Assembly: GCF_022394535.1 (NCBI RefSeq)
Contig: NZ_CP089414.1
Coordinates: 620,001-684,000, forward strand
Direction: 5' to 3'
DNA length: 64,000 nt
Source of the DNA: Dyella terrae
Lineage (GTDB): Bacteria; Pseudomonadota; Gammaproteobacteria; Xanthomonadales; Rhodanobacteraceae
Below are positions 57,512-61,065 of the stretch, in pieces (position 1 is the first letter of the stretch; each line of letters begins with the position of its first letter). The notes beneath the pieces are model-generated. The model searched no databases, had not been told where the DNA came from, and worked only from the letters and a program-made list of their open reading frames with translations. Position numbers and translations under genes: made by a program.

Positions 57512-57910
57512 TCGATAACCAGACAATCGGAAAGCAGTGCTGACGGCGAACTTTAACCTGCTCTTGCACCACAATGCTTGTTGCATTGCAGAAGGCCGAG
57601 GTCCACGCCATGCCTCTTTTGATTCGGGCGATGCATCGCCGCTACGTTTCACCTGAGAAAAGCACGAGTGAGATACAGCGATAGGATGAAGTCGCAACGC
57701 AAGGCCGCCATTCGACTAGGTCTACTTTTGTGCGCATGCCGCAGAGCACCGTCGATGCTTTCACATTGGTGATGGTTATGCGAAGAGTCAGGCGTGCAGG
57801 CGTTGCGTCGGCTACTTAACTTCTTTGGGGCATTGGTGAGTTGGCCGTCCATCGTGCTAGCTTCGCCAGTGCCGCCGGGTGGCGGCTAACCAACTCAATG
57901 GAGTGACGTT

Positions 57911-58072
57911 ATGAATACGCTAGAAACCAAGATCGAGGATGTGGTCAGCGAGGGCAATCTTTTTGCCATTCAAATCGACGGTCCGATGCAGAAGGATGCT
58001 GTGACCGGCGTTTTGGAACTGAAGCCAATGGGCTTCCCGCAGGATGCCCGCTGGTATTACAGCGGAGGTTAA
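57911..58072 (+). CDS. Small peptide gene, RiPP-precursor-like
   Basis: The product has 53 residues, beginning MNTLETKIEDVVSEGNLF and ending QDARWYYSGG. GGAG lies 7 bp before ATG 57911. An acidic, helical-looking N-terminal part is followed by a C-terminal part rich in Pro, Gly and aromatic residues, as in leader and core of ribosomal peptides. It is followed by a hairpin and then an asparagine-synthetase-like gene, the A-C order of proteobacterial lasso operons. The lasso rule (Thr at -2, Gly at core position 1, Asp/Glu at 7-9) is not met, so another RiPP class, or a divergent lasso, is possible. A hairpin GCCGCC-GGGT-GGCGGC lies at 57871-57886. Confidence 0.5.
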   Translation: MNTLETKIEDVVSEGNLFAIQIDGPMQKDAVTGVLELKPMGFPQDARWYYSGG

Positions 58073-58113
58073 GAGGGCGCTTGGTTCACTGAGTTTTTGT
58101 TCTAGCGATGTAG

Positions 58114-58141
58114 CGCCGTCCCTCTCTGGGGGCGGCGTTTT
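58114..58141 (+). terminator. Attenuator-like hairpin between peptide and cyclase-like genes
   Basis: CGCCGTCCC-TCTCTG-GGGGCGGCG pairs over 9 bp (one G-U) and is followed by TTTT. It lies 41 bp after the peptide stop and 18 bp before the next gene's ATG. Hairpins at this place in lasso-peptide operons keep precursor message higher than enzyme message. Confidence 0.6.
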
Positions 58142-58158
58142 GTCTTCAGGGAGTTTCT

Positions 58159-59781
58159 ATGCTCAAGGCTGAGATCGCGCTGCATGACTTGTCATGCCAT
58201 CCGAGTTGGAATAATGGCGTGCTGGCGATAGGAGATAGCTGGGTAAAGCCTCACCTGCATGCTGCGTTGGAAACGCTGTTTGTATGTACGGAGGGGCAGT
58301 GGTTACTGGTGGTTCGCGAACGTCACGCCACTGCATCTACGTCTGAGATGGACATCACCGGCCCCGTCAGTGCGGAGCGGTTCGATGAAATCTACCGCGC
58401 ATGCCTCGTGTGGCCTCTCGATTACGTGATGGTCGAGGTGGCACAGGCAGGGCATCGGATGAGGGTCCGGTCAGGTGCCTACGGTGTCGCTCCTGTCTAT
58501 TGCCGCACGACAACGAACGCGCTGGCGATCTCCTGGGACCTGGCCGATTTTCTTGCGCCCCCTCTTTCGATGAATATCGACATTGCGAGCCACTTTCTCG
58601 CGCTCGGCTCGATCTACTCCGCGCAGCACATCTGCTCCGGTATCACGATGCTTACCGAGCGAGCGTCGGTTTTTGTGGAGCCTGGCAAGGCGCGCTATCA
58701 ATACCCTGCTGCGGTCGATATGGCCGTGGCGTCGCCAGCGCAACTGGATGCGGATGAGGCGGAGGAGGCCTTCGGGAAGCTCCTGCACGGCATCGTGATG
58801 GCGCGCCCCGCAGTGGCCAATGAGATCGCCGTCGAACTCAGCGGCGGTATGGACTCGGCGACGGTTGCCAGCGCATTGACGAAAGCCTATGGCGCGGTTG
58901 CCAGTCGCGGAATCCTGCTGAGTGGTGATGAGCGCACGATCCAGGTGGAGCGGCGCGAGAAGATCGCTCAGCGGCTCGGTCTGCGTGATCAAACCGTGGA
59001 TATCGATGCTCATCTGCCGACGCTCGATCTCCAGCCGGGCGAGCGAATGGTGTATCCGCACGCCGAGTTGTACATCGAGGCGTTCGATAATCTTTCGGGG
59101 AGCGCAAAAGCGCAGGGGCGCGAACTGCTCTTTACTGGTGTGGGTGGCGACGAGCTTTTCCCCGCCTATCAGGACGAGGCCGTACAAAAGACGGGCACCG
59201 ATGGCTCGCTGGTGGGAGATGCGAGAGAGTACGCGGGCAAGCTGCTGACGCCACGCGCGCGGTCCGCCATTCAATCGTCACGCATGTTCGATGCACCCAC
59301 CGGGCCCGTGCCGGTCTCTTCGTTGCTTGCGGGCGCTTGCCAGGCGCCTCATATGCTTCGGCATGGTCTATGGCCGGTTAATCCCCTAAGTGATCCCCGG
59401 CTGGTGGCCTTTTGCCATCGGCTTCCGCGTGCAAGCCGACATGGCCGCGCCACGATGCGGGGGTATCTAGGTACGCGCCTTGGTGACGACGTTTTCCCTT
59501 TGCACTATGTCAAGGAGACGTTCGCGCGCGTGCTTCCCGAGCTGATCTCGCGGCACGCAAAAACATTGGCGTCCCAATTGCGCGAGTGCGCGCTGGCGGA
59601 CCTCGGCCTTGTTGATCACCGCGCCGCACTGGCGTTGCTGAATCAGGTGGCGACTACGCGTAGTGATGCGCCGGCGGCGCCACTGATCGCCTTCCTTTGG
59701 CTGGAGAGATTCGCCCGGCAGCTGAGCAGAGGTTCGGAAATCAATGCGGTGGGGAGCGGGCGGGTATTCAAATCTGCATGA
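58159..59781 (+). CDS. Asparagine-synthetase-like ATP-dependent enzyme (lasso-cyclase-like)
   Basis: The protein has 540 residues. The N-terminal half resembles an inactive class II glutaminase domain: the product begins MLKAEIALHDLSC, with no Cys at position 2, so ammonia is not made. The C-terminal half has the ATP-pyrophosphatase loop in VELSGGMDSATVASAL (residues 228-233) and GVGGDELFPAYQDE. Lasso cyclases and other RiPP amidoligases have this layout, activating a side-chain carboxylate by adenylation. SD AGGGAG is 5 bp upstream. There is no B protein next to it; the following DNA holds a decayed response regulator. Confidence 0.65.
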   Translation: MLKAEIALHDLSCHPSWNNGVLAIGDSWVKPHLHAALETLFVCTEGQWLLVVRERHATASTSEMDITGPVSAERFDEIYRACLVWPLDYVMVEVAQAGHRMRVRSGAYGVAPVYCRTTTNALAISWDLADFLAPPLSMNIDIASHFLALGSIYSAQHICSGITMLTERASVFVEPGKARYQYPAAVDMAVASPAQLDADEAEEAFGKLLHGIVMARPAVANEIAVELSGGMDSATVASALTKAYGAVASRGILLSGDERTIQVERREKIAQRLGLRDQTVDIDAHLPTLDLQPGERMVYPHAELYIEAFDNLSGSAKAQGRELLFTGVGGDELFPAYQDEAVQKTGTDGSLVGDAREYAGKLLTPRARSAIQSSRMFDAPTGPVPVSSLLAGACQAPHMLRHGLWPVNPLSDPRLVAFCHRLPRASRHGRATMRGYLGTRLGDDVFPLHYVKETFARVLPELISRHAKTLASQLRECALADLGLVDHRAALALLNQVATTRSDAPAAPLIAFLWLERFARQLSRGSEINAVGSGRVFKSA

Positions 59782-59812: not shown

Positions 59813-59919
59813 CTAGATCGCGAGCTTGTAACCGACGCCGTAGACGGACTCGATGAGTTCTTCGCCGCCCGCTACTTGCTCGAGCTTGCGTTGGAGAACT
59901 CTGGCGTTGGTCGCGCTTA
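59813..59919 (-). pseudogene. C-terminal remnant of an OmpR-type response regulator
   Basis: The last 35 codons read NARVLQRKLEQVAGGEELIE then SVYGVGYKLAI and stop. This is the end of a winged-helix effector domain (pattern RRLRxKLE...IETVxGVGYxL). The receiver domain and most of the effector domain are gone; the frame runs into the dgoD stop region. It marks a deletion next to the peptide locus. Confidence 0.55.
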
Positions 59920-61065
59920 CCACTCGGCCACGCTCCCGTCGGCGTGGCGCCACACTGGGTTGTGCCAGCGGTGGCCTACTTTGGCGCGCTCGGTGACGTA
60001 GTCTTCGTTCACTGCAATGCCAAGGCCGGGGCCGGTGGGGATATCCACGTAGCCATCGTTGTAGGCGAATACGCTGCGATCGGTCACGTAGTCCAGTAAG
60101 TCGTTGCCAGTGTTGTAGTGAATCCCCAGGCTCTGCTCCTGGATGAAAGCGTTGTGGCAAACACCATCAAGCTGCAGGTTGGCTGCCAAGGCGATAGGGC
60201 CAAGCGGGCAGTGCAGGGCGAGCGCTACGTCGTAGGCTTCGGCCATCGCGGCGATCTTGCGCGTTTCGGTGATGCCACCCGCGTGTGAAGGATCGGGCTG
60301 AATGATGTCGACACCACCTATCTGCAGCACACGCTTGAAGTCGTAGCGTGTGTACAGGCGTTCGCCCAGCGCAATGGGCGCGGGTGAGATGGAAGCCAGC
60401 TCCGGCAGTGCTTCCAGGTGATCGGAGAGCACGGGCTCCTCGATGAACATCAGTTTGAACGGGGCCAGTTCACGCATCAGTACCTTGGCCATCGGCTTGT
60501 GTACGCGGCCATGGAAGTCCACGCCGAGGCCGATGTTGGGGCCCACTGCATCGCGCACAGCCTGCACGTTCTCCAGTACGCGTGTGACCTTGTCGTAGCT
60601 GTCGACGTAATGCAGCTCCTCAGGGCCATTCATTTTTACTGCGGTGAAACCACGCTCTACGGCGGCCTTCGCGGCAGCGGCGGTATCGGCCGGTCGGTCG
60701 CCGCCGATCCACGAGTACACACGGATGCGTTGGCGCACCAAGCCGCCGAGCAATGCGTGCACGGGTTGACCAAGATCCTTGCCCTTGATGTCCCACAGCG
60801 CCTGGTCGATGCCGGCGATGGCGCTCATGAGCACGGGGCCGCCGCGATAGAAGCCGCCGCGGTACATCACGTTCCACAGATCCTCGATGTGGCGTGGATC
60901 CTTGCCTATCAGGTAGTCCGACAGTTCGTCCACGGCGGCGGCGACGGTGTGTGCGCGGCCTTCCAGTACCGGTTCGCCCCAGCCGCTGATGCCCTCGTCC
61001 GTGTCGATGCGAAGGAAGCACCAGCGCGGCGGGACCAGGAAGGTGGTCAGGCGGGTAATCTTCAT
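59917..61065 (-). CDS. dgoD: D-galactonate dehydratase
   Basis: The protein has 382 residues of the enolase superfamily. Metal ligands and catalytic residues are visible: GVDFHGRVH (Asp and His), MFIEEPVL (Glu), GERLYTR (Glu) and QPDPSHAGG (His), with [16 protein letters not shown]. It converts D-galactonate to 2-dehydro-3-deoxygalactonate. It closes the dgoR-K-A-D operon, 15 bp after dgoA. Confidence 0.93.

Follow-up and report, generated by a model that had tools for sequence, protein, structure and literature searches.

The window analysed here, a stretch of 64,000 nucleotides of the soil bacterium Dyella terrae (positions 620001-684000 of the 5.36 Mb single-contig genome), contains two adjacent genes that probably form a minimal cassette for a ribosomally synthesized and post-translationally modified peptide (RiPP): one encodes a precursor peptide of 53 amino acids, the other an enzyme of the asparagine synthetase family that, as judged from the sequences, would adenylate an aspartate of the peptide and join it to the side chain of a lysine. 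A conserved peptide composed of a leader motif and a C-terminal core is always accompanied by an enzyme of the asparagine synthetase/lasso cyclase superfamily that keeps the nucleotide-binding loop. An earlier note on this DNA had proposed a RiPP-like pair of a reduced or new class. The pairing, purifying selection on the peptide and conservation throughout the family speak for this proposal, and the modification of the peptide is putative.

An enzyme profile built from 18 enzymes (limit E <= 1e-20) matches 31 of 233 genomes of the bacterial family to which D. terrae belongs, and a search with the peptide only (model built on the peptides of 15 loci, limit E <= 0.001) returned the identical 31 genomes and none of the other 202. 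In a draw at the level of the order, the enzyme was present in 29 of 398 genomes, four of which belong to another family (f2; their genus is assumed to be Xanthomonas, as they cluster with X. sacchari in the tree). Draws at the level of the class and the phylum (369 and 398 genomes) gave the window's own match as the sole one at E <= 1e-20; these draws do not bound the range of the family because they missed the members on rhizobial plasmids described below. Flanks were taken for 40 enzyme copies of Lysobacterales genomes (L087 is cut by the end of its contig, and the 132-amino-acid fragment G046:C46 was left out). The peptide model finds a peptide at all 40 copies: 42 peptides, with two at each of two loci (L091, L110), are encoded upstream within 500 bp of the enzyme gene at 37 loci and just downstream at three. 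Moreover, peptide and enzyme distances are correlated over 39 loci (Mantel r 0.84, 0 of 2000 permutations). Four genomes have extra, remote peptide genes (L174:4018-4185, L175:4350-4502, L176:4141-4299, L177:3862-3954), which lie about 2 kb (G038), 14 kb (G196) or 20 kb (G206) from the enzyme gene or on another contig (G078). The earlier note had asked whether the homologues might be ordinary asparagine synthetases without a peptide gene; with a peptide at 40 of 40 copies, they are not. The window peptide has no match in Pfam or NCBIfam; a scan of 15 members of the peptide family gave two unrelated weak Pfam matches in single members and zero NCBIfam matches.

All 42 peptides contain the motif K-x(5,6)-D, with a spacing of five residues in 33 and of six in nine, which puts the Asp at position 7 or 8 if the invariant Lys is counted as residue 1. 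Besides the leader residues listed in the table, the strict columns of the 41 unique aligned peptides are this Asp (41) and this Lys (40); the single Lys exception (L078) is an aligner shift, and L078 carries K-x6-D. The four remote peptides, which are absent from the model, have the motif as well (KYQGSTD, KVAESTD at two loci, and KLTAGLYD). The stretch from Lys to Asp is variable between genera, as seen in KPMGFPQD, KIDDVGD, KASEPGD and KNIGVDD, and the peptides, with lengths from 31 to about 60 amino acids, are highly divergent and have little in common beyond the K-x(5,6)-D core. Arg never occupies the Lys site of the 42 aligned peptides, nor does Glu occupy the Asp site, which favours side-chain chemistry over charge or a trypsin-like cut.

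Purifying selection acts on the peptide. In comparisons among the three species of the window's genus, the core (Lys38 to the end) has accumulated 13 synonymous and no nonsynonymous differences, summed over the three species pairs. The ratios of nonsynonymous to synonymous differences per site (pN/pS) for leader, spacer and core are 0.33, 0.15 and 0 in this genus (three peptides) and 0.37, 0.56 and 0.21 in genus g11 (13 peptides), where the core is again the most constrained part; in six peptides of five loci (L109-L112 of f2 and L081 of the window's own family) the values of 0.11, 0.09 and 0.13 show no clear difference. We conclude that the open reading frame (ORF) is coding, as the check for conservation and purifying selection suggested in the earlier note would have it, and that the core is not diversifying within genera. 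Between genera, the core differs widely. The expectation of a conserved leader and a variable core has thus to be given up: in two of the three groups the core is more constrained, and in the third the parts are alike.

The pair also occurs outside the Lysobacterales. A tblastn search of 72,556 plasmid records identified relatives in 53 records (Rhizobium 33, Bradyrhizobium 13, Streptomyces 3, Mesorhizobium 2, Xanthomonas 1, Aminobacter 1), and MOB-suite classifies 39 of the 53 plasmids as conjugative. Searches with two distant enzymes (L187, L184) as the query gave no plasmid record beyond the 53 at E <= 1e-10. In viral contigs, no relative was found. The enzymes encoded on rhizobial and Streptomyces plasmids are 27-49% identical. 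We read 21 of the 53 regions, that of X. sacchari included: a small ORF with K-x5-D lies just upstream of the enzyme or its remnant in 19 of the 20 regions outside X. sacchari (the exception is L186), with some of these ORFs being unannotated and picked with the motif in mind. Examples of such cores are KRRLPGDSATLTY in Mesorhizobium, KGPFPSDSANEGYL in Bradyrhizobium, KFLVRGDSARYRY in Rhizobium sp. NLR16a (where the precursor has 31 amino acids), KGGKPGDMDKLDV in the R. leguminosarum group and KPAGTEDQGYRDEN in Streptomyces; the term R. leguminosarum group is our own label for R. leguminosarum, R. johnstonii, R. ruizarguesonis, R. lentis, R. indigoferae, R. hidalgonense and Rhizobium sp. We also applied a fixed rule, K-xn-D within the last 30 residues of any ORF ending at most 450 bp upstream of the enzyme, to 13 of the 20 loci, all of them already read; the loci omitted (L183, L188, L191, L195-L198) are near-copies of the R. 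leguminosarum-group type or incomplete. A spacing of n=5 was found in 11 of the 13 loci, which are not independent and fall into about five groups, any other n (0-12) in 0-4 of 13, and at random positions in 79 of 1496 cases (5%). In L190, the enzyme start was set 150 bp ahead of the annotated position, given that another frame seems to encode the N-terminus; with the start as annotated, the outcome is unchanged. Among the annotated small genes upstream of distant enzymes, 12 of 14 encode K-x5-D, eight of the 12 being near-identical in sequence. Some plasmid copies look damaged. At L190:5754-5921, on the B. japonicum plasmid p1S06B, the enzyme seems to start in another frame than the annotated gene, and this copy may be broken; at L198:5001-7194, in R. 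leguminosarum bv. trifolii TA1, the match to the enzyme is confined to its first third and is followed by an ISL3 transposase gene, and the peptide gene is kept. The same partial enzyme match is present in five R. ruizarguesonis records.

The earlier note had taken the downstream gene to encode an asparagine-synthetase-like enzyme with an inactive glutaminase domain, and both statements hold. The enzyme matches PF00733 weakly, with 24.7 bits (cut-off 21), over residues 218-338. In NCBIfam, the scores for the asparagine synthase family TIGR01536 (32.5 of 267 bits) and for NF033561 (31.8 of 300) and NF033535 (14.1 of 525) are all far under the cut-offs, and all 18 family enzymes match TIGR01536 as well as NF033561; since asparagine synthase and the albusnodin/ikarugamycin-type cyclase score alike, the two cannot be told apart by NCBIfam. 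In 40 of 40 enzymes, residue 2 is Leu, Ile or Phe and never Cys, whereas the AsnB-like protein of the same genome starts with MC. Of the plasmid members examined, none has Cys at residue 2 (in L193, residue 3 is a Cys; the enzymes of L179, L184 and L190 may be short at the N-terminus). A standard asparagine synthetase was rejected on the grounds of the missing Cys2, the 32.5 of 267 bits and the peptide that is always present. In 12 diverse members, those of the window and of X. sacchari included, S228, G229, G230, D232, S233, Q262, R265, R266, D277, G327, G329, G330, D331, G403, W405, P409, E453 and a few others are invariant; E453 belongs to KETF, which we take to be the equivalent of the catalytic Lys region of the synthetases. 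By hhalign, the family aligns to lasso cyclases of its own bacterial family with E 5e-9 over 352 columns (two-row profile) or 1e-7 over 299 columns (one row), and to the AsnB-like protein of the genome with E 2e-5 over 127 columns (one row), which suggests that the enzyme is nearer to lasso cyclases than to AsnB. By profile, the best matches among solved structures are an NAD synthetase (E 0.001) and then beta-lactam synthetase (PDB 1JGT; E 0.0024, 165 of 522 positions). In a tree, 55 members stand apart from two lasso cyclases and AsnB (support 96/89, with long-branch warnings).

Table. Features of the peptide-enzyme cassette in the D. terrae window (window coordinates)
Feature	Position	Strand	Basis or comment
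Shine-Dalgarno sequence GGAG of the peptide gene	57900..57903	+	read in the sequence; 7 nt 5' of the ATG
Precursor peptide gene, 53 aa	57911..58072	+	ORF; family present at 40/40 enzyme copies; pN/pS 0.175 for the whole peptide (three species of the genus)
Leader motif N-x-F-x-I-x4-P, residues 16-25	57956..57985	+	N in 39, F in 40, P in 41 of 41 unique aligned peptides
Core region KPMGFPQDARWYYSGG	58022..58069	+	Lys38 (58022-58024) and Asp45 (58043-58045), proposed linked pair
Terminator-like hairpin, intergenic, 12 pairs	58112..58139	+	comparable hairpins in 17/37 spacers
Asparagine-synthetase-family (PF00733) enzyme, 540 aa, proposed isopeptide synthetase	58159..59781	+	starts 86 bp past the peptide stop codon
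SGGMDS nucleotide-binding loop, residues 228-233	58840..58857	+	S, G, G, D, S invariant in 18/18 and in 12/12 more diverse members
GVGGDE motif, residues 327-332	59137..59154	+	G327, G329, G330, D331 invariant in 18/18 and 12/12
KETF, residues 452-455	59512..59523	+	invariant in 18/18; aligned with K-x-T-F of lasso cyclases

On the basis of these data we propose the following sequence of events. The enzyme would bind the leader, with N-x-F-x-I-x4-P as its likely recognition site, and use ATP to adenylate the invariant Asp at its beta-carboxylate; the invariant Lys that precedes this Asp by 6 or 7 residues would then attack the activated group with its epsilon-amine. The product would be a macrocycle stapled by a Lys-Asp isopeptide bond, with loss of 18 Da and release of AMP and pyrophosphate. 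The loss of the glutaminase Cys implies that the nucleophile is probably an amine of the peptide, and if an adenylating-superfamily enzyme without an ammonia supply is always found with an invariant amine and an invariant acid at a near-fixed distance, these are most simply the two ends of an amide. A leaky terminator between the genes would keep the peptide in excess of the enzyme. Removal of the leader and export would be left to unlinked host functions in D. terrae; some rhizobial and Streptomyces relatives have an ABC transporter, an APH kinase or a GNAT gene nearby. A core that is near-unchanged within genera points to one fixed target or job, and our guess is that the peptide serves as a signal or chelator rather than as a diversifying bacteriocin.

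Some of our observations weigh against this proposal. The distance between Lys and Asp also fits a lasso ring of 7 or 8 residues starting at the Lys. In single peptides, K-x(5,6)-D is cheap: it arises in 11-56% of shuffles of 20 representative peptides (K-x5-D in 6-36%). A lone peptide with the motif therefore means little, and the weight lies in its recurrence. Two of the 13 loci tested with the fixed rule miss it (in L180 the motif is farther from the end of the ORF, in L186 the tail of the peptide is changed), and two of the 14 annotated small genes lack the motif, another ORF nearer to the enzyme having been taken there. K452, the position of the catalytic Lys, is R or P in five of the 12 diverse members (L182, L192, L184, L194, L189), and the AlphaFold model is poor (mean pLDDT 40.6) and gives leader binding no structural support. 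Finally, the hairpin in the spacer is not kept in L067 and L068, the two other cassette-bearing species of the window's genus.

The main rival is a lasso or lasso-like peptide with the Lys as residue 1: an unlinked protease would cut before Lys38, and the new N-terminal amine would be joined to the Asp at position 7 or 8. We consider this unlikely, despite the fitting ring size. As in the proteobacterial class II lasso operons with their genes A, B and C, a short precursor is followed by an asparagine-synthetase-family protein without an active glutaminase, an acid stands 6 or 7 residues past the putative first residue, and the C-terminal half of the enzyme aligns to lasso cyclases, to which its profile is nearer than to AsnB. 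The part of the peptide that begins at Lys, 13 residues long in L187, lies within the 13-33 amino acids stated for lasso cores in PMC13352647, and PF13471, the lasso leader-peptidase family, is found somewhere in 29 of the 35 cassette genomes, in 23 above the cut-off, with mostly weak matches. However, a strong match of B-protein size (frames of 240-254 amino acids) exists in only three of the 35 genomes and in none at the cassette; the remaining matches are weak and nearly all in frames of about 500-660 amino acids (one is in a 163-amino-acid frame with stops). As the earlier note had seen for the window, a B gene is not adjacent, and none is linked in the fetched flanks of the 40 loci. In contrast, two true lasso clusters found in this bacterial family (L141 and L142, in genomes G047 and G068) have the B gene next to the cyclase and contain lasso-like precursors as well. 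With these as a positive control, real lasso clusters can be recognised in such genomes, and the cassette lacks the B gene that they have. Moreover, the protease would have no clear sequence preference. Residue -2 from the Lys is mixed in the 42 peptides (A 22, E 14, Y 3, and P, T and L once each); Lys stands in place of a small residue 1, and residues observed experimentally at this position include Gly, Cys, Ser, Ala and, most recently, Asn (PMC12670498). The strict fixation of the Lys would be without a role. The enzyme obtains 32 of 300 and 14 of 525 bits at the NCBIfam lasso cyclase families, at which the true lasso cyclase L142 reaches 118 and 48 bits and is itself below the cut-offs. 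Membership in the canonical lasso clusters was rejected, given that neither a linked B gene nor Thr(-2) is present, and the A-C order of lasso operons pointed out in the earlier note is not supported as a sign of such membership. The same note had described the lasso pattern as absent. This is right for Thr(-2), present in one of 42 peptides, and for residue 1, which would be Lys; for the acid at 7-9 the description has to be amended, since the invariant Asp stands at 7 or 8 from the Lys.

It is improbable that the same Asp enters another linkage, an aspartimide, an ester or an amide to a small external amine, with the Lys serving for recognition only. The Asp is the sole strictly invariant acid, and the APH and GNAT genes beside some relatives show that further tailoring may exist; the Lys, however, is as strictly kept as the Asp and stays at a near-fixed distance from it outside the Lysobacterales, too. 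An amidation of the kind known from TsrC, ScdTA and PesC, which would turn the Asp into Asn or give the peptide a C-terminal amide or nitrile, is about equally improbable: asparagine-synthetase-like enzymes do act in this way in other RiPPs according to PMC13060819, and PesC is able to use free ammonia, but ammonia would be needed by an enzyme whose glutaminase Cys is missing in 40 of 40 cases, the C-termini are variable, and the invariant Lys would go unexplained. That the pair is no RiPP system at all and the small protein a regulator or subunit of a metabolic amidotransferase is highly improbable: no exporter or protease is conserved beside the pair in the Lysobacterales loci and the core is conserved rather than variable across three species of the genus, but the highly divergent peptides, with little in common but the K-x(5,6)-D core, and the remote and double peptide genes fit substrates better than subunits.

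With respect to expression of the cassette, the small gene with a Shine-Dalgarno sequence of its own and the attenuator-like hairpin described in the earlier note are both present (see the table). The spacer as a whole folds no better than shuffled sequences (z -1.37). Terminator-like hairpins occur in 17 of 37 spacers as compared to 1.6 expected (by a simple rule of our own, with mononucleotide shuffles), and the intergenic hairpin probably lowers expression of the enzyme relative to the peptide. The start codons of the 42 peptides were picked by the best match to AGGAGG (3-5 of 6 letters), and the list of their Shine-Dalgarno sequences is therefore no independent test. A GC-rich palindrome, GCCGCCGGGTGGCGGC, is located at 57871-57886, just 5' of the Shine-Dalgarno sequence of the peptide gene; several other loci have a C/G-rich stretch followed by AATGGAG or GATGGAG ahead of the ATG. 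At its C-terminal end (59725-59781), the window enzyme extends about 12-20 residues beyond the other 17 enzymes of the 18-enzyme alignment, with the enzymes of L097 and L101 being long, too. The neighbouring gene at 59917-61065, at a guess of the enolase type, has three close copies in the D. terrae genome that are 84-100% identical.

The surroundings of the pair are not conserved in the fetched flanks (median about 7.7 kb per side). When the enzyme and the peptide frame are set aside, clusters of ORFs of at least 90 amino acids are common to seven of the 40 loci at most; seven ORF clusters, one of them being the peptide frame, were found in four to seven loci, mostly at scattered places. Within the window's genus, the three species have no neighbouring ORF of this size in common at their cassettes (15, 18 and 16 compared), indicating that the pair sits at different places even within a genus. 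PADLOC gave no match, and a defence system was dropped as a candidate. An APH-type phosphotransferase gene directly follows the enzyme gene in the rhizobial loci L179, L180, L187, L190 and L193, with a GNAT gene after it in L180, L187 and L193; a possible role of the two is further tailoring of the peptide, or self-resistance. ABC transporter genes are near the enzyme in L184, L187 and L194 and are annotated also in L181, L185, L186 and L193. In nine of the Rhizobium regions read, an acyl-homoserine-lactone (AHL) synthase gene precedes the pair: it is directly upstream in seven (L182, L183, L188, L195, L196, L197 and L198, annotated as GNAT in L198), separated by transposase genes in L191, and divergent with three genes between in L192. 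The nifHDK genes follow the pair in L182 and L188. In the eight loci of the R. leguminosarum group (L182, L183, L188, L191, L195-L198), the last 18 residues of the peptide are identical, and rhiA is annotated nearby in six. In Streptomyces, a protein with a Tox-REase-9 domain is encoded downstream of the enzyme, past a methyltransferase gene (L189:8384-8740).

In graspetides (omega-ester and omega-amide peptides), one ATP-dependent enzyme acts on a leader-bearing peptide and links the side chain of a Lys to an acidic one through an amide; their leaders carry another motif than N-x-F-x-I-x4-P. Beta-lactam synthetase is an example of a class II amidotransferase fold turned to intramolecular amide formation. 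It is the second-best solved profile match of our enzyme, differing in its small-molecule substrate and in the limited span of the match. The Lys-acid side-chain amide, the single ATP-dependent enzyme and the leader-bearing substrate that we propose for the cassette resemble the graspetides (see the abstract of PMC13097080), whereas the cassette enzyme belongs to PF00733 rather than to the ATP-grasp proteins and no conserved neighbour gene is present at the cassette. From asparagine synthetase B, the cassette enzymes differ in lacking both the N-terminal catalytic Cys and a full-length family match. TsrC, ScdTA and PesC are PF00733 enzymes that act on ribosomal peptides as well: these asparagine-synthetase-like RiPP amidases and nitrile synthetase modify the C-terminus with nitrogen that comes from glutamine or ammonia (PMC13060819). 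In contrast, our enzyme has no Cys, and it is an internal Lys/Asp pair that is conserved in its peptide. In the open-licence literature, no description of the K-x(5,6)-D peptide/enzyme family, the Rhizobium symbiont pair included, was found among the matches listed.

There is, in our estimate, an even chance that the cassettes represent a new RiPP class distributed over Gammaproteobacteria, Alphaproteobacteria and Actinomycetota, in which isopeptide synthetases of the asparagine synthetase superfamily, with no linked leader peptidase, would introduce a Lys-Asp staple (K-x5/6-D) into very short precursors, and which on Rhizobium plasmids, beside an AHL synthase gene and twice before nifHDK, may make a quorum-controlled symbiosis peptide. 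If the staple is real, a single enzyme of about 520 amino acids would cyclise precursors of down to 31 amino acids via a Lys-Asp amide with no linked peptidase. Peptides could then be stapled with a simple tool, and side-chain macrolactams would be accessible by a route distinct from that of the ATP-grasp enzymes. The cassette family may also provide an identity for some of the uncharacterised PF00733 enzymes located close to RiPP elements, of which PMC13060819 counts about 300. If the staple is true, the cassette would make an undescribed kind of ribosomal natural product that is present on rhizobial plasmids, too, and in Rhizobium symbionts a putative modified peptide would be encoded next to the AHL synthase gene and, for two strains, next to nif genes.

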